Assembly (NCBI GenBank): GCA_011033025.1
Contig: WFMF01000034.1
Span: forward strand, 248,001 to 312,000
From: Beroe forskalii
Lineage: Eukaryota; Ctenophora; Nuda; Beroida; Beroidae
Direction of reading: 5' to 3'
Length of the DNA: 64,000 bases
Of this stretch, positions 87 through 44,200 are shown one piece after another. Under the pieces are notes generated by a model. The model was not told the DNA's origin, ran no database searches, and saw only the letters and a program-made list of their open reading frames with translations. The first letter of the stretch is position 1; the number at the start of each line of letters is the position of its first letter. Both the position numbers and the translations under genes were made by a program.

Positions 87-1130
87 CTCAACCAAGTGGA
101 GCAGTCTCAAAACAATATCTAATAACCTACAGCAAAATTAATAACCGTTACTGTTATTCTGTTGTGTGAGTTTTCATGTGTGACTTGTGTGCGTCTGTGT
201 TAGCAACAGCTCCACATGGTTGAGAGTCTCGTTCACCTTGATGGTTCATTATCCAAACATGAATATTATCAGTTAAAAGTTACTGGTTTCCTCAACCAAA
301 GCAAGAATTAAGCTAAAGTTGACAAATAAATTAGCTAAAGATTTAATAATAGTTGCCAATACAAAATGGAAGAGTGTCTCCACATGGTTGAGATAATATT
401 CAAGATTGTATCCTTTTTTGTTCATAAATAGATATTAGATAACATTGAATAAACATTACATTGATTTGAATGTTCAACCAGATGTGGAGACTGATCTAAA
501 TTATAGGTATGGGTACAGCTCCACATGGTTGAGGGCTAGATCATCCAATTAGCTTACAATCCTGTCAGTAAACCCTTGATGAGCCACAGAATACTAAATG
601 GGCCTTCATAACCAACGTGTTGCTTCATAATTGATACAAATTTGATGGTTACCCACAATTTCACATTTTCCACATTTTAGAATTGAAGATGTGTGAGTAT
701 TTGAAATGGTTCTCCACGCTGGTTGAGGTCACTAGAGAACTTATATGGCCTCCAACATTTGGCCAGAAGATGACTTCAGCTAAAATTGGAATTTCTGGCT
801 CCAAATTGGACATAAAACCCCTGGTTGAGGGAATTTTAATATTTATTTTCAATATTTCTCCACATTGGTTGAGGAATAAATGTTAGAAACCTTAATAAAA
901 AGTTGTGAAATGATGTAACCCTTCAGCTACTAAAATTTCAATCAAAAATGTCCATCTGGAGCTGGTTGAGGGCCTTGCTCCACACGTAGCTCCACACGTC
1001 ATATATTAGGCTATATCTTTTGAACCAATCAAGCTTTAAATTTCGTTCTTTAAAAAATGGATGTAAAATTTCCTCAGGCAGAAGTCTCCATATGACTCAA
1101 AATGATAAATACTTGTGGAGCCCCTCAACC
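87..1130. repeat. Scattered 15-16 bp motif CTCCACATGGTTGAG
   Basis: A short motif recurs in both orientations without any obvious longer repeat around it. Near-complete copies lie at 87-101 (reverse), 210-224, 378-392, 473-490 (reverse), 519-533, 712-727 and 858-873. Partial copies lie near 291, 818, 961, 977-1000 and 1111-1133. Three copies are identical 15-mers; others carry one extra base or one to three changes. Spacing varies from about 40 to 190 bp. No coding potential is seen. It may continue upstream of the window. Confidence 0.7.
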
Positions 1131-35430: not shown

Positions 35431-36861
35431 TCATTTATTTGACTTAACTGCAATCAGGTTGTGCATCATATCAAATGAATTGCCATCAGGTTGCACTGAA
35501 ATTAATTCTGAAGTTACCAAATTGAAAACACTAAGATAGCCATCACTGTCAATAGACTTGATAACTGCTGTGCAATCAATAGACCCAACACTTATTCTTA
35601 CTTGTTTATTCTGATGCATCCACTTATCACAATATCTAGTGACAAACTGAGAAAGGCCTTGATTATTAAACTTATCTACTTCAGTCATGAAATGGCAACA
35701 AATCCTGCTAGCAATTTTCTGGATAGAATGCTTAGATCCAGTCATCTGAGAAAGAGAAACAGTTGGCTCTAAGTTATTGACATTCAAACCAATTCCCACA
35801 CAAAGATTACATGAGTTATTGTCAGAACTACAATTAACTAAAACTCCTCCAATTTTTATATTATCAGAGGTATAAATGTCATTAGGCCATTTTATTTGAA
35901 CAGGCACATTTGAGCCACAAATTTCTGCAATAGCCTGAACAGTTGCAAGTGCTGCAATATACTGCACAAATGGAAGCTTTTTTGTAATAAAATTATCTTG
36001 GCTAAGTGAGAAATAAAAGGACAGGCACATTGATCCTTGGGGAGATATCCACTGGTTTTTGTCACGACCCTTACCACTTAACTGAGTATCTGCAAGAATA
36101 GCAACTGAATTACAACATGATGTAATCAACTTATCTTTCCAGAGCAAATCTTGAGTGGAAGTAACAGCTTTGCTATGTATGAATATTTCAGGAAATTTCG
36201 AATCCCCCATCTGTTCAAAAAATTCGATATTCTTTGACTCATTTCTAAAAATAGTAATGTTTTTAAAGGTTTCGTGACCATCTGAATGAAATGTGAATTT
36301 TTTCCTATCACAATCAATAGAGTGATTTTGTAAACTTACAAAAAATGATTCAAGAGCATCAGCAGAGAGACTAAATACCTCCAAGGGACAGACACTAAGT
36401 TCACCATCTTGAACACTAGTTATACCTAGACCACAAAGAGTTTGTGATAATATCAAATTGTCTGAAAAGTATTTCATAGGAAGCATAACTAATGAATCTT
36501 TTACCCCTTGTCCATGAGTCAAAATTGTTGCATGATCACAAATGTCATCAAGACATGGTCCTTGGGGTAGTCTAGCTGAGTTGAGAGGAAGCAGGGATGA
36601 GAAATATCCACCCATTGATAAAATTTTGCCACCATTTCTGGAGAACTGTTTAATTTGACTGGTGGCTCGAAATGAAATGTCATGTGGGTAGGATGCAATG
36701 ACAACAAGAGAACAATGCTTTATCCAGCAGTCACTTTCATCAAGTTTATTGATGGTATATACATTTCTTCCCAAACATGCTGATAGCATCTGAGAAACTG
36801 ATTCAAAAGCATTACCATTTTTGCAGCAATATACCAGAATGCTGTGTGGCCGGGGAGTCAT
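35431..36861 (-). CDS. HLCS: Holocarboxylase synthetase / biotin-protein ligase, intronless
   Basis: Attaches biotin to carboxylases via biotinyl-AMP. A single open frame encodes 476 residues from the ATG at 36861. An upstream in-frame ATG at 36924 exists, but TTTTTTCAG at 36876-36884 looks like a splice acceptor of a 5' UTR exon, so I prefer the inner ATG. The N-terminal BPL_N-like domain (about 6-170: ILVYCCKNGNAFESVSQMLS) is the eukaryotic type. The BirA/LplA-like catalytic core holds TQLSGKGRDKNQWISPQG (the biotinyl-AMP loop, GKGR at 263-266), KWPNDIY (324-330), KIGGVLVN with the active-site lysine, and GIGLNVNN (356-363), followed by the small C-terminal domain. It is shorter than human HLCS (726), lacking the long N-terminal extension. 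The coding sequence is AT-rich and very CpG-poor, unlike neighbouring spliced genes but like the divergent gene at 38877. Confidence 0.93.
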   Translation of the reverse strand: MTPRPHSILVYCCKNGNAFESVSQMLSACLGRNVYTINKLDESDCWIKHCSLVVIASYPHDISFRATSQIKQFSRNGGKILSMGGYFSSLLPLNSARLPQGPCLDDICDHATILTHGQGVKDSLVMLPMKYFSDNLILSQTLCGLGITSVQDGELSVCPLEVFSLSADALESFFVSLQNHSIDCDRKKFTFHSDGHETFKNITIFRNESKNIEFFEQMGDSKFPEIFIHSKAVTSTQDLLWKDKLITSCCNSVAILADTQLSGKGRDKNQWISPQGSMCLSFYFSLSQDNFITKKLPFVQYIAALATVQAIAEICGSNVPVQIKWPNDIYTSDNIKIGGVLVNCSSDNNSCNLCVGIGLNVNNLEPTVSLSQMTGSKHSIQKIASRICCHFMTEVDKFNNQGLSQFVTRYCDKWMHQNKQVRISVGSIDCTAVIKSIDSDGYLSVFNLVTSELISVQPDGNSFDMMHNLIAVKSNK

Positions 36862-37374
36862 GCAACTACTTAGAACTGAAAAAATGTGTTTAATAATGTT
36901 GATGATGATAGATACTAAGCCCATAGGACTAAGTAGGTGAATTCATGCTGTGTCCAGCCATCATTGCCCATCATCTGGCATTAGGAACATTTCTATCACT
37001 AAGATTAAATTCAAATAATCTTTAAACACGCTGACACATAGATAAACTGGCATTCTTTAGGACGAAATAGCACATGACAAATAAAAGTAGATAAATGAAT
37101 AGATAAAATACGATAATGAATATTTAAATTTGATAACATTGTTTGAAGCATTTGGTCATATATGAAATCAAACCCACACACTAAATACTTATCGCCAACA
37201 TTCAAATGAAAATTGACATTGTCAGATTTGAATCTTGATATCACATCAATAAATACATCAAAAAGCATGAACATAATGATCATCAGAACCTAATACAAGC
37301 ATATCAGTCAAGCACGATGCAATGCGAACAAAATAAAATTATACATGTTTTGCAAAAATGCAAAGCATATATTC

Positions 37375-37623
37375 GGTAGGTCTCCCATATAAACGGGAGC
37401 CTTCATTATCTATGACAATGACGTCACTCAGAAAAATATAATTAAGCGCACCTAGCGCTTTAAGGACTAGGGTTAGGGTCTGGATTAGGGTCAAGATTTA
37501 TTAGGGTTAGGGTTAGGATTAAGGTTAAGGTTTTGGTTAGGGTTATGGTTAGGTTTAGGATACAGAAAAATTGATGTTTAGATCTGTGACGTCACTCAGA
37601 GCCGTTTATATGGGAGAGATACC
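37375..37623. mobile_element. 249-bp hAT-like MITE carrying TTAGGG-type repeats
   Basis: Ends GGTAGGTCTCCCATATAAAC (left) and, in complement, GGTATCTCTCCCATATAAAC (right) match at 20 of 22 positions and include TGACGTCACTCAG subterminally. An 8-bp duplication ATATATTC flanks it (37367-37374 and 37624-37631). The core at 37468-37560 is a degenerate (GGTTAG)n/(TTAGGG)n tract. Eight-bp duplications are typical of hAT elements; the assignment is inference. Confidence 0.75.
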
Positions 37624-37659
37624 ATATATTCCCTCACCACGAAACATGTTCCGAAGCCC

Positions 37660-38060
37660 GCATAGCTATAGGTACGCGCTGCGCGCTTCCCTACGCCGCG
37701 CCGTGCAACTGGCAACGCAATTAACAGAGATATACGTGTACGTGTTTAGTAACACGGAATGTTTTCATCAAACCAAATGGTTACGCGTTGTCTGACGTCG
37801 TCGATGACCCATTTTTTAAAATTTAAAATTTAATTTGCGAGTCGTGGCGCGCGCGAGGGGGTCAGGCAACGCCTGACAAATTACGCGCGCGCGGTCTATG
37901 GCTACATAGGGCACGACAGCGTGCCGCGCGCGCAGAATAAAACGCTGGTTAGGGTTTCTCGGCATAGGTGTGTGTATGCGCCGTGTGCTTCCCTACGGGC
38001 GGGACAAACTGTTCTGAGGAAGCGCAACGCGAATAGGGATATACGTGTTTAGCAATGATT
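37660..38060. repeat. GC-rich repeat copies between the divergent gene pair
   Basis: Contains GCGCGCTTCCCTACGCCGCG, GATATACGTGTACGTGTTTA, the TCAGGCAACGCCTGA palindrome (37863) and GGATATACGTGTTTAGCAAT (38038). These link it to the repeats at 18113 and 27340. Confidence 0.55.
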
Positions 38061-38876
38061 AGGGCAACGAAATGTTTGAACACCAGCTATATTTGTCAGT
38101 TGTTCACTAATTTCAAGTCATTAAATACTTTAATTTTATGGCTATAAGTTGAATTACCAGTTGATACAAAGCTGTTTATTTTCAGATGAAGCACATTACT
38201 TTGTCACTCCACTGCCCCTTGTGTGTAAATTTGTTCATTTTAAATTCGAAAAGTTCATAATATTAAGTGCTCATAAGGTCTCACTGGTGCAATGCATTAT
38301 CATTACGAGTGCTGTAAAAATTATTATCATGAGTGCTGATTGATGTCTTGAATAAAAATTACTTTTTAATTCAAAAATTATTACTGATATGTGTGCTCAT
38401 AGGTTGAAAGCAACAGGTCGAAAAGTAGGTTGAAAAGATAGGTAGAAAGGGCTCAATAAAGACCCTTCTTGGATTGAAAATTGCAGATCATGCTTTACAT
38501 CTTCAAGAGAGATGAGGAAAAGATAGTTCCTGTTTTGAAAACCATCCAGATTGGGGCACAGTAAAATTCTACATGTCGTTTCGACCTTCTTTTCGACCTA
38601 CTTTTCAACCTGTTGTTTTCAACCTATAAAGACATATACGTTACTTTCTATTGTGGTGCTGTTGTTCTCATAATACAGGGCCTCACCTCGTGAATTAAAG
38701 TGCACTGAATTGTTTGACTGATCAAACTCAGCTTCACTTTGTTTGATTAGTGCTCTAATTACTACTCCACAATTTCTAATACAATTATTACCCTAACCAG
38801 GAAATACAATTAGAGCAGCACTACCACTGTGCAGTGTCATAACAATTCTGTATTCAAATTTACGCCCTATCCCAGG
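38061..38876. other. Upstream region of the pterin fusion gene
   Basis: AT-rich and non-coding. AGGTTGAAAGCAACAGGTCG (38400-38420) and its near complement around 38590-38625 form an imperfect inverted repeat. CCCTATCCCAG at 38865-38875, directly before the ATG, resembles a splice acceptor. Confidence 0.45.
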
Positions 38877-40604
38877 ATGACTGATTTCTTGGAAGTTAAC
38901 AATCTGCTTCTTCGTACCAGAATTGGTTTCAAGGCTCATGAAATAAACAAATTACAAGATATACTTATCACAGTTAAGATTTTCACCAATACATCAGCTG
39001 TGGGGGACAGTGATGATGCTAAGAATTGTGTTGATATCAGGTCAATTACTAAAGAAGTTATGAAAACTGTGGAAGAAAAAACTTACAATTTAGTTGAAAC
39101 AGTTGCAAATGATGTAGCATATATTGCACTCTTGTTCAAAAAAGTTGAATCAGTTGAGGTAAATGTAAAGAAACCTAATGCCATAAGATTTTCTGATTAT
39201 TCAGCAGTAACCATCAGCCGAAAGTTATCTGATTATACAGTTTACAATGTTGCTATAAGCATTGGATCAAATATTGAACCCTATCTAAACATTCCCCTAG
39301 CCATTGAAAAAATTTCTTATCAAATTGGGGCTATCAAAGACATTTCTTACTGCTACAAAACCCCTGCTATTGATTCTTCATATCATGAAGATGCTACTGA
39401 TTACTTCTTGAACCTTGCCATTGAAATTGATACCTATCTTGATCCAATTAAACTAAAAGAAAAACTGCTAAATATTGAAACTGAAATGGGCCGTGTTCGT
39501 GATGAAAGTGACAAGTTTATTCCCAGAGTTATTGATTTAGATATCTCTTTATACACTGGCAAAAAACAAAACTCTGTTATATACTGGCATAGCATTGAAG
39601 ATATTCAAAAATTTTGCCATGTTGTTGTTCCTTTAGCTGACATCAAACCAAAATTTGAAGTTGAAAATTCAGGAAGAAATATCTTCCAGGTAGCAGAAGA
39701 GTTAACCAAATCTAATTCACCCTCTGATTTCTTTCCTAAAGTGACCTTAGATAGACTTCAAAAATTCATTGAAAAGAGTTGCTATTCTAGGGTAACACAT
39801 CAGTCATACGAAAATGGTGATAATAAGGAGATAACTAAAGCCCTAGCCTTTATTGAAAATAATAGTTCATGCAAAGTTGCATTGGTTACTGGTGGTGCAA
39901 GTAAAATTGGAAAGCATGTAACACAAAGGCTTCATGCAAGTGGTTACAATGTTGCTGTCCATTATTGCTCCCAAGTAGGTCTTGCTACTCAGATAGTAAA
40001 TGAAATGAATAAAACTCGGCATGATTCTGCAATTGCAATTCAAGGCAACTTTTCAAAATGTCCCCAAAGTGTTTGTAATCAAATAGTTGAAACAGTTATC
40101 AAAAAATGGAATACTCTTGATGTGATTGTGAATAATGCATCAATTTTCGAGGAAACAGTTTTACCTACCTGCTCTGAAGAAGAATGGAACAAAATTCTTA
40201 ATACAAATCTATCATCCCCATTTTTCTTGGTGCAATCTTCAATGCCCTATCTTACAAAAAGTGGTGGTAGTGTAATTAATATTGCTGATATTCATGGTGA
40301 TAGGCCACTCCTCAATCATTCTGCATATTCTGTTTCTAAGTCTGGACTTATTGCATTAACCAAATCAATGGCCAAAGATATGGGAAAGCATGGAATTCGA
40401 GTCAATGGGATTAATCCAGGGGCAATTTTCTGGATAGATGAAAAGCATTCTGAAGAGTTCAAACAATCAACTTTGTCTAAAATAGTTTTGAATGAACTAG
40501 GATCTGTGAAAGATATTTGTGACACTATTGAATTTTTGGTTAAAAGTTCTTACATTACTGGGCAAATGATAAATGTTGATGGTGGTAGAACACTGAACCA
40601 ATGA
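38877..40604 (+). CDS. Three-domain pterin enzyme: FolB/FolX-like - FolK (HPPK) - FolM/PTR1-like SDR, intronless
   Basis: One uninterrupted frame of 575 residues. Domain 1 (about 3-118) is a dihydroneopterin aldolase/epimerase fold: RTRIGFKAHEINKLQDILI, E22, NLVETVAND with E74, and VKKP (K98/K99). The usual aldolase tyrosine of the VDY motif is isoleucine (VDI, 52-54). Domain 2 (about 122-310) is 6-hydroxymethyl-dihydropterin pyrophosphokinase: GSN (130-132) and the signature PRVIDLDISL with Mg-binding D220 and D222. Domain 3 (333-575) is a short-chain dehydrogenase of the pteridine-reductase group: TGGASKIG, NNAS, ADIHGDRP, YSVSK (Y484, K488), ending VDGGRTLNQ. No dihydropteroate synthase domain is present. 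Animals lack de novo folate synthesis, so acquisition by transfer is likely. By my count there are only about nine CpG in 1.7 kb. Start taken at the ATG after CCCTATCCCAG, not the upstream GTG. The in vivo reaction is unknown. Confidence 0.92.
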   Translation: MTDFLEVNNLLLRTRIGFKAHEINKLQDILITVKIFTNTSAVGDSDDAKNCVDIRSITKEVMKTVEEKTYNLVETVANDVAYIALLFKKVESVEVNVKKPNAIRFSDYSAVTISRKLSDYTVYNVAISIGSNIEPYLNIPLAIEKISYQIGAIKDISYCYKTPAIDSSYHEDATDYFLNLAIEIDTYLDPIKLKEKLLNIETEMGRVRDESDKFIPRVIDLDISLYTGKKQNSVIYWHSIEDIQKFCHVVVPLADIKPKFEVENSGRNIFQVAEELTKSNSPSDFFPKVTLDRLQKFIEKSCYSRVTHQSYENGDNKEITKALAFIENNSSCKVALVTGGASKIGKHVTQRLHASGYNVAVHYCSQVGLATQIVNEMNKTRHDSAIAIQGNFSKCPQSVCNQIVETVIKKWNTLDVIVNNASIFEETVLPTCSEEEWNKILNTNLSSPFFLVQSSMPYLTKSGGSVINIADIHGDRPLLNHSAYSVSKSGLIALTKSMAKDMGKHGIRVNGINPGAIFWIDEKHSEEFKQSTLSKIVLNELGSVKDICDTIEFLVKSSYITGQMINVDGGRTLNQ

Positions 40605-41006: not shown

Positions 41007-41012
41007 AATAAA
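41007..41012 (+). terminator. Polyadenylation signal AATAAA
   Basis: About 400 bp after the stop of the pterin fusion gene, at the end of an AT-rich 3' region. Confidence 0.4.
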
Positions 41013-41206: not shown

Positions 41207-44200
41207 ATGAGACTAGAGGAGCAAGCTGCCCCACCACCCCCTCCAGAAAAGGAACGGACATCCCGGCACAGGTCTCGTGACCGGATACGACGACATGAGG
41301 CTACTGTAGGTGAGTGTCTGTCGCCATGGCAACAGCAAATTAGCTGCAAAGTTATCTTGTTAAAAGCAACGTTTAATATTCTGATGAATATTTGGTATGT
41401 AACAAGGAGTTTTTAAACGAGAACTGTCTTTCAGCCAGGTCTTAGGATGAGATTGATTTTTCTAGTAACTCCACTGCTTCTGTCTTACTTCATGATGATA
41501 TAATCACACACCACATATTAAATCACTTCTTCAAACAATGCTTCGTGTAATAATGATGAGGTATATATAATGATATAACACATGGTTTAACGTGGATCCT
41601 AATTATCATATGTTGTACGGTGTTATAATGCTCTAATGAAGTAGTACAATGATTAAATGTGGGATGTGTGTATAAGGGCTACTAACCGTTTCACCAGCAA
41701 TATATGGCACATAAAGAGAGTACCTGTTAATGATCTTAACCACTCAAATTTAATGATGGCGTGTGAATTATTATAAGCCACTGCAATTGTCAAATTCCAA
41801 AGCACTAGTAACTTCAACGACCTTTAACGACTTTTAATGCATAGTACTTTCAAATCATCATCAGTGCATGAGTCATTGATTAACCTCAAATTTGATTGTA
41901 TAAAGCAGTTTTATATTATAGAGTTTCCACTATATAATCCAGGTATGAACAGACCCTGGGCTTTTCCACTTTTTACAATTCTTTTGCATCATATTCTCCA
42001 CACCATTCTGGCACGTATTCAATGTACACCCTCCCTTCACACACAATACACACACTGGTCGTGTGTAGGTACATAACAAAGAGCTGCTCCTTTATAAAGC
42101 AGGCGTGTGTGTGTGTGTGTGTGGGGGAGGGTGCCCTTTGTAAACATGGATCAAGTGAAGCCCTGTTGTACAGCAGCAACCCTATATATATATGTATCAA
42201 GTTACAATAAGTGTGAAGATGAAGTTATGTGTGGCCAGAACCCAGAAAAATAAATTCTGGGCGGAACATCTGCTTCAGAATTTCTAATCAACCACTGCTG
42301 TCTCTAAGCTACCATAGTTTATAATAATTACTTCTTCAATAAATCTATATCCCGCAGTTCACATATGCTTGACATCATTGAATTCACTAATGAGGGAGCT
42401 TCCTGTTTTGGTAACGACCTGTTCTTGTCACGACCTGTTCTGGTCACGAACTGTTCTGGTCACGACCTGTCTGGTCACGACCTGGTCTGGTCACGACATC
42501 TCTTGATTTCGACCTGCCTTGATCACGATATGTTTTATCACGATCTGTTTGGTCACGATCGTGAGATACTCAATGGTGGCAGTCACGGTATGAATTGTAA
42601 TTATAATATTCCAAGTGTGGCAGATGTCTTTCTCTAGCACTACTACACCTATAACAAGTGCTCCATAACTATAGTTACTTGAGTTATATTACTATAGTTT
42701 TATACTGGTGAGTATAATATTGGAAGAGTGTGTTGGTTAGTATGTACCCAGCTGTTACCACATTGTGTAGAATTATGAGCCGCGCGGTGACAATGGCTTA
42801 TTGCGATGACGTCATTTTCATAGAATAGAATGGAGTGTTACTGACATCAGACTGCTTTTGTTAGTGAGCGGCGTATGAATGTTGTGAGACAGATGTCTGT
42901 AAAATGTTAAGCTTCTCTGAGATGTGTGTGTAACTACAAGTCGTAGAGTCGTAGGACTGAGTCCAGTAGAGGATGGATAAGATTATTATGGATATGATTA
43001 TTATGGATAAGGTTATTGGTGGTACAGTGTACCACTGATCACTGATCAGTCAAAAGATCATTCGCTCTCTCCGTTAATTATGCATCACGTTTATCACAGT
43101 TTTATTATTAATGAATATTTAATTGATATTTTATTATTGATGAATATTTAATTATTATAATTATTATTATTTGATGAATATTTAATAGCACGGTACCCAT
43201 CTATAATATTAATAAGTTGGTATACGCAGAGTTTAGGCCAAAATGTACCACTAACTCAGTAATGAAAAGTCACTGCAAATAAAAACGGGAATTCCGATAA
43301 TCCTGCAACTTTTGCAAACCTTCTACAACGCTACAAGGTGACAAATCATTGTCGTTCATTGAATAAGAAAATAACTTTTTGAATAAGATTCAATTGTTTT
43401 TATCGCTATTTTGTCTGTTGTAATAATGATCTGCTCTTGGTATACAGAATTGTGTCCATTTAAATCGAATATGATGACGATTGAATAAAGATGCTGATAA
43501 ATGATAATGGCCATCATTCTGTCGCGCCTTTAAAAGTTTAAAGTAGTCACATTTATCACCTAAATTGAGATGCCTTCAGACATCTTCCCTCCCACTTACA
43601 TCAAGGCCTGAGGGTTATTTCTATTATTTTACATGGGAAACATGAAACATGTCTTACTGCTGAGTTTTAATTGAAACCACTGATGCATTTAATTGCTCTA
43701 TCACACATTTAATTTCATAGAGAACTGCAAATATTACTGCTCCCTCTATAACTTAACGGTAGAAACAACAGTGAATGTGCAAAAAATTATTCATTTGTCA
43801 CCGAATGCTAGCAGGGAATATTTCGATAAAAACAAGATTTACATCGTGTTATAATATTAGGAAAACCTGGTGAAATTTGATAAAGTGTAAATGAATCTGG
43901 CGTCCCGACTGGGCTCTGGGAAACTTTCTTTGGAATATTGCCAATTTCACGAATTTTCCTAAGAGTATGCCCCCAGTTCATTGATCATATAATATTCGAA
44001 ATATTCTTTAATACCAGGACACTTCATTTGTTGTATAACAAATAACTACATTCGTTTTCAAATTCTTGAACTTTCGATGGCATTTGTATATTGAGGAATA
44101 CAGTGTCCGAAATTTGATTAACATAAACCCAAAATTTAAAAATAACAAAAGAATCGTAGAATTGTAATGTATATAAGTAGCGCACCGAATTGAAACACGG

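Follow-up and report, generated by a model that had tools for sequence, protein, structure and literature searches.

A gene of apparent bacterial descent joining FolX-like, HPPK and pteridine reductase domains in an animal genome

The locus lies in a 64,000-nucleotide stretch of Beroe forskalii DNA, which we call the window, and contains a three-domain gene at positions 38877–40604 of the forward strand. The gene is a single, uninterrupted frame of 575 codons with an ATG start and a TGA stop, and encodes, in this order, a FolX-like domain, an HPPK (FolK) domain and a PRK09135-type pteridine reductase. Pfam matches above cut-off cover residues 6–113 (FolB, E = 9.2e-22), 127–258 (HPPK, E = 2.6e-18), and 341–571 (E = 3.2e-44) and 333–517 (both SDR), upholding the three-domain fusion proposed in the initial annotation. 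PF00809 (DHPS), the domain that would mark a FOL1-type protein, is absent from the 575-aa protein in the same Pfam analysis. A longer N-terminus was considered and dismissed, since no in-frame ATG lies between the in-frame stop codon at 38811–38813 and the start at 38877. The ATG has an A at −3 and is directly preceded by a pyrimidine-rich stretch and an AG, a possible splice acceptor of a 5′ exon. On the 3′ side, the AATAAA at 41007–41012 of the same strand, about 400 bases beyond the stop codon (an offset of 407 from position 40600), is a candidate polyadenylation signal.

The gene resides on an 863-kb contig (C403) of a 216-Mb assembly. This assembly contains 11 Wnt matches, all above cut-off (best E = 5.5e-39), as against none in the 14 prokaryote controls, so the host is an animal, as had been claimed. 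Two of the Wnt loci (C634:58813-60480 and C214:896191-897792), with two profile pieces each in frames of 563 and 626 aa, are apparently intronless. Within the window, RPL3 is split between frames at 18.7–19.1 and 25.3–25.6 kb, in accordance with the animal-type introns that the initial annotation saw in the flanking genes, and a frame with a RAWUL domain lies at 28.8–29.6 kb. The divergent neighbour, at 35431–36924 of the reverse strand, is a biotin-protein ligase gene encoding 497 aa in a single frame. Intronlessness had been taken as a mark of foreign origin, a use that fails here because this ligase gene, four PTPS matches and the two Wnt loci are single-frame as well. The ligase gene and the fusion gene are arranged head-to-head across a CpG-rich kilobase (37001–38000, CpG observed/expected ratio 1.38), both genes themselves being CpG-depleted. 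CpG islands between divergent genes suggest shared promoters, and the arrangement suggests that 37001–38000 acts as a bidirectional promoter common to the two genes.

The composition of the fusion gene is that of its host. Specifically, its GC3 is 0.248 (0.279 in the ligase gene), and its relative synonymous codon usage correlates at +0.82 with the ligase gene and at −0.69 with a bacterial relative, L027, described below. The CpG observed/expected ratio is 0.16 in the fusion gene, 0.13 in the ligase gene and 0.76 in the whole window, and the 8 CpGs observed in the fusion gene compare with 25.5 ± 3.2 after codon shuffling (minimum 16, n = 300). Elsewhere in the host the ratio is 0.46 and 0.29 in the RPL3 exon stretches and 0.15, 0.25 and 0.30 in three SDR frames; depletion is not uniform, the RAWUL-domain frame having a ratio of 0.76. 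Germline methylation depletes transcribed gene bodies of CpG, and the depletion of the fusion gene is therefore a strong indication, from base composition, of an old and transcribed gene.

These features bear directly on bacterial contamination or misassembly, a reading that bacterial-type domains in a single uninterrupted frame could invite. It is contradicted by the 863-kb contig, the animal-type neighbours, the host-like codon usage and the CpG depletion, together with the search for a chorismate-binding gene (pabB/trpE-type), which finds none in the 216-Mb assembly although it detects one in each of the 14 prokaryote controls. The assembly accordingly seems free of any sizeable bacterial chromosome, and we assign contamination a negligible probability.

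Domain 1 (residues 1–120; 38877–39236, forward strand) has the FolB/FolX fold. Among NCBIfam models, FolX (NF008418) scores 86.8 bits, as against 51.8 for folB (TIGR00525) and 44.1 for FolB/epimerase (NF008614), and this ranking of FolX and folB models is reversed for a gammaproteobacterial FolB-type control (L036). The score is below the curated FolX cut-off of 152 bits, as is that of L027 (106.9), and we therefore name the domain FolX-like rather than FolX. Compared with solved structures, domain 1 scores 57.6 bits against Escherichia coli FolX and 51.8 against Pseudomonas FolX, versus 29.2 for the best aldolase-only chain and 38.1 for a bifunctional aldolase-HPPK chain. In a FolX/FolB tree of 27 rows, domain 1 groups with L027, the annotated FolX proteins of E. 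coli and Vibrio, and L158 (support 96/92), on a long branch whose placement the program flags as unsure. The FolX-like character put forward earlier is borne out by these scores and by this clade.

The presumed active site of domain 1 differs at one position. Residues E22, E74 and K99 are retained and are invariant in all 13 rows of a smaller FolX/FolB alignment; we take these Glu, Glu and Lys residues and a Tyr to be the active-site residues of the fold. The Tyr at position 54 is replaced by Ile. It is present in 12 of the 13 rows of the smaller alignment, the exception being the window, and in all 26 other rows, FolX and FolB alike, of the 27-row alignment. The initial annotation was right that residue 54 is Ile, but not that this residue reads like FolX: because all other FolX and FolB rows keep the Tyr, Ile54 is a change peculiar to the fusion protein and no mark of FolX. 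Mutating the equivalent Tyr in a bacterial aldolase alters the reaction, and the activity of domain 1 may be changed or lost.

Domain 2 (residues 127–258; 39255–39650, forward strand) is recognised as HPPK by both Pfam (66.9 bits, cut-off 25.7) and TIGR01498 (63.8 bits, cut-off 54.1). It contains the HPPK motif residues G-S-N, T-P, N179, R206, R208, R217, D220, D222 and H238, whose roles, including those of R206, R217, D220 and D222 as catalytic Arg and Asp residues, we assume from the HPPK literature. A FolK tree of 37 rows gives domain 2 no resolved position, and a single common donor for all three domains is for this reason not demonstrated. We know of no partner for HPPK without DHPS, and of no other use for the HPPK product. 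The conserved HPPK is the part of the fusion for which no current explanation accounts.

Domain 3 (39861–40601, forward strand) is an SDR pteridine reductase. The best SDR family model is PRK09135 (NF006598), which scores 258.7 bits and leads the next family (173.5) by 85 bits; the score is below the family cut-off of 288 bits, which L027 (319.1) and L028 (345.6) exceed. Residues Asp471, Tyr484 and Lys488 align to the Asp, Tyr and Lys of a PTR1 chain, which we take to be the PTR1 triad, whereas the FabG chains shown have Ser in the first position. The motif TGX3RXG is given for PTR1 and FolM in one report (PMC1971073); in domain 3 it reads TGxxxKxG, with Lys343 in place of the Arg, and the D471-Y484-K488 triad is retained. 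In a reductase tree of 70 rows, domain 3 falls within mostly gammaproteobacterial PRK09135-type rows as sister to L034 (support 96/87), again on a long branch with a placement flagged as unsure by the program. This position supports the bacterial affinity claimed for the domain. Its identity reaches 46% with gammaproteobacterial proteins, versus 36–37% with L027. Mixed alignments (A4 and A5), in which FolX or FolK rows had been placed on the reductase, were left out.

The reductase is not closest to the E. coli type of FolM. A Vibrio dihydromonapterin reductase FolM, the sole E. coli-type row, is a distant outgroup in the reductase tree, and NF005066 (E. coli-type FolM, dihydromonapterin reductase) is absent from the 25 families listed of the 58 that match domain 3. 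The pairing of FolX with FolM had been read, by homology, as the bacterial tetrahydromonapterin route; with the nearest relatives of domain 3 being of the PRK09135 type, that reading is not sustained. The Xylella protein PD0677 is presumably of the PRK09135 type too. This FolM-like protein is reported to have failed to let E. coli use oxidised pterins (PMC1971073).

We next consider bacterial relatives of the whole protein. A search gave at least 594 matches, of which the best 80 were kept as loci; in nine of these tblastn locates a relative of each of the three domains within 5 kb, and L027 alone among the 80 has all three in one direction. L027 (L027:5001-6650, CANHNQ010000049.1, a Gemmatimonadota MAG) consists of folX followed by a folK-folM fusion, its FolX and FolM identified by tblastn and its FolK by frame reading and a family model. 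The three domains of L027 agree with those of the fusion protein in kind, order and frame, and its match covers residues 1–573 of that protein, with 32% identity in the best segment. L027 differs in comprising two genes, a 427-aa FolK-FolM frame starting with an ATG three bases after the FolX stop codon, and in retaining the Tyr that is Ile54 in the window. L027 is the nearest bacterial arrangement seen among the best 80 of the at least 594 matches. The gammaproteobacterial loci likewise have the reductase family located among pterin genes, but as separate genes, folM lying on one strand and folB and folK on the other.

The phylum of L027 was searched in 298 genomes with the whole protein as query, four candidates being scored per genome and flanks of 1.5 kb examined for the best loci; reductases crowd the candidates in this design, so FolX and FolK parts could be hidden. 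Among the 30 best loci from these 298 genomes there is no second folX/folK-folM case, the only one being that in G001. In L027's family, the L027 FolK as query matches a FolK in 33 of 59 genomes, and among its further FolK frames of at least 340 aa, six in number, none runs on into a reductase, which leaves the L027 arrangement isolated in its own family. Two FolK frames, L178 and L182 (genomes G087 and G674; 450 and 357 aa), have a C-terminal stretch that resembles an HD-type phosphohydrolase by eye.

In the gammaproteobacterial class, the FolX-FolK half as query gives a match in 332 of 369 genomes, and folB and folK adjoin in many of them. None of the seven matches listed with frames of at least 340 aa is a FolK-FolM protein: two are FolK-FolP fusions, three are FolK with a chance upstream extension, and two are adjoining FolB/FolX-FolK. 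Plasmid sequences carry FolX, FolB, FolK and SDR as separate genes, one Fusobacterium record from the plasmid search having a single 281-aa frame for FolB and FolK, and viral contigs give four distinct loci with reductase-type matches only. A bacterial triple fusion may exist beyond the Gemmatimonadota phylum and the gammaproteobacterial class searched. Taken domain by domain against bacterial sets, the searches and trees place domain 1 in the FolX clade and domain 3 among PRK09135-type reductases, with the position of FolK unsettled. The fusion gene is apparently of bacterial descent, judging from these affinities.

The host genome provides the context for a pterin enzyme. GTP cyclohydrolase I (GTPCH, folE) is found at two places, PTPS in four matches, aromatic amino acid hydroxylase (AAAH) as one gene in eight pieces, and DHFR as one exon match. 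The PTPS matches (C445:144459-144842, C445:168775-169158, C180:413046-413432 and C669:294837-295109) each lie in a single frame of 163–210 aa, the C445 pair being in opposite orientation, and some of the copies may be haplotype copies. No folP gene for dihydropteroate synthase is found in the genome: all six PF00809 matches are methionine synthase. A DHPS candidate on C647 was rejected on this ground, its translation read by eye as methionine synthase in two multi-exon copies. The two methionine synthase copies (L151 and L152; C647:11015-12129 and C647:35027-36853) are about 24 kb apart on the same strand. No pABA/anthranilate synthase is found in the host genome either. The absence of dihydropteroate synthase noted from the protein thus extends to the genome, where the search for folE and folP finds only the former.

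The output of the fusion gene is probably not folate, given that neither DHPS nor pABA synthase is found; through the known enzymes searched for, the predicted protein cannot lead to folate. One could still suppose that the animal makes hydroxymethyl-dihydropterin pyrophosphate and leaves the coupling with pABA to a non-homologous enzyme or a symbiont, since the HPPK motif residues are present and the HPPK product has, by established knowledge, no other known use. With neither a PF00809 DHPS nor a chorismate-binding (pABA) gene found in the genome, and no candidate enzyme seen, we consider a folate route distinctly improbable.

A second possibility is that FolX and the reductase make tetrahydromonapterin or tetrahydroneopterin, an alternative cofactor for hydroxylases, from host dihydroneopterin triphosphate, with HPPK as a passenger. 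Such a role would suit a FolX-like domain 1, a domain 3 with the D-Y-K residues of a pteridine reductase, and a genome that has both GTPCH and AAAH. It fits poorly with a domain 3 whose nearest relative is not the E. coli-type dihydromonapterin reductase, with the loss of Tyr54, and with HPPK residues conserved where a passenger would not need them. Moreover, PTPS is present, so a biopterin route probably exists. We regard this cofactor role as unlikely.

Animals are treated as being without the pterin branch of folate synthesis. The initial annotation stated this as known, but amphioxus was already on record as having a folB-folK gene, with less certain cases in Nematostella and Trichoplax (PMC4224340). 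Specifically, Maguire et al. (2014) describe for Branchiostoma floridae a genomic folB-folK fusion whose 180-kb contig also carries animal-type genes, an orthologue transcribed in B. belcheri, no folP, and a FolK that branches with Planctomyces maris; their candidates in Nematostella (folB-folK) and Trichoplax (folB) are doubtful, and the authors found it odd that just the first part of the pathway should be kept (PMC4224340). The window gene resembles the B. floridae gene, compared by description only, as a prokaryote-like animal gene with a FolB-type domain and FolK in the company of no folP, and differs from it in the pteridine reductase domain, which is unmentioned in the accessible description (PMC4224340). 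The folB-folK-folP fusions (FOL1) of fungi and Amoebozoa also carry FolK behind a FolB-type domain within a single chain (PMC4224340); their third domain is dihydropteroate synthase, whereas the fusion gene has a reductase and the host genome no DHPS that we found. Leishmania and Trypanosoma PTR1 and bacterial PRK09135 proteins share with domain 3 the SDR fold with Asp-Tyr-Lys, PRK09135 being its best model, and differ in having TGxxxRxG where the window has TGxxxKxG and in being stand-alone as far as seen, L027 apart. We recognised no FolX/FolB-FolK-pteridine reductase fusion in an animal in the open-access literature, a scope that leaves subscription journals mostly outside and is not proof. 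Beyond the amphioxus report, the new elements are the reductase domain and the evidence from CpG content, in a genome that allowed a check of host adaptation and of which steps are missing.

The animal precedents raise the question of age. The fusion gene and the folB-folK of Branchiostoma, Nematostella and Trichoplax could be one gene, taken up ahead of the divergence of these lineages, inherited vertically and lost repeatedly; the transfer would then be old and not lineage-specific. Such a history is favoured by the report of folB-folK or folB from three animals that are far apart, with no folP beside the amphioxus gene (PMC4224340), and by the strong host adaptation of the fusion gene in codon usage and CpG content. 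The same text, within what is available of it, also offers counter-evidence, in that the amphioxus FolK is placed beside Planctomyces maris, the other two could not be aligned, and a pteridine reductase domain goes unmentioned for the amphioxus gene (PMC4224340). We rate an ancient animal gene a little short of an even chance; it concerns origin and can be compatible with the functional reading that we prefer.

That preferred reading, to which we give an even chance, is of a bacterially derived gene, now resident in the animal, that encodes a multifunctional pterin enzyme, most likely one that supplies or salvages reduced pterins. The gene would probably originate from neighbouring bacterial pterin genes like the Gemmatimonadota folX and folK-folM, now joined in one frame. 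The animal's own GTP cyclohydrolase would feed the fusion protein, whose FolX-like domain would work on the dihydroneopterin side chain, whose HPPK domain would pyrophosphorylate 6-hydroxymethyl-7,8-dihydropterin, and whose reductase domain would reduce dihydropterins using NAD(P)H. The output would be reduced pterins for cofactor, redox or pigment use, and probably no folate. One point against this reading is that the animal already has GTPCH, PTPS and an AAAH and thus no obvious need of a further route to reduced pterins. In a bolder version, which we think unlikely, the gene is an old, patchily retained trifunctional animal pterin enzyme from a fused bacterial folX-folK-reductase unit, serving a pathway outside folate and biopterin synthesis, with aldolase/epimerase chemistry altered by Ile54 and with hydroxymethyl-dihydropterin pyrophosphate put to a novel use or passed to a non-homologous partner enzyme.

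A motif-intact HPPK that shares a germline-adapted gene with a FolX-like domain and a reductase, in a genome where DHPS was not found, suggests animal pterin reactions that are absent from textbooks. It bears on antifolate logic, which takes hosts to be without these targets. The puzzle posed by amphioxus, in which folB-folK is described as kept without folP (PMC4224340), becomes testable.

Two repeats lie in the DNA on either side of the gene. About 240 bases 5′ of the ATG, an inverted repeat at 38388–38638 has 51-nt arms that are 86% complementary and spaced by 149 nt, and may be a small transposon-like hairpin. On the 3′ side, positions 42386–42496 hold an array of 16-base units, about CCTGTTCTGGTCACGA.
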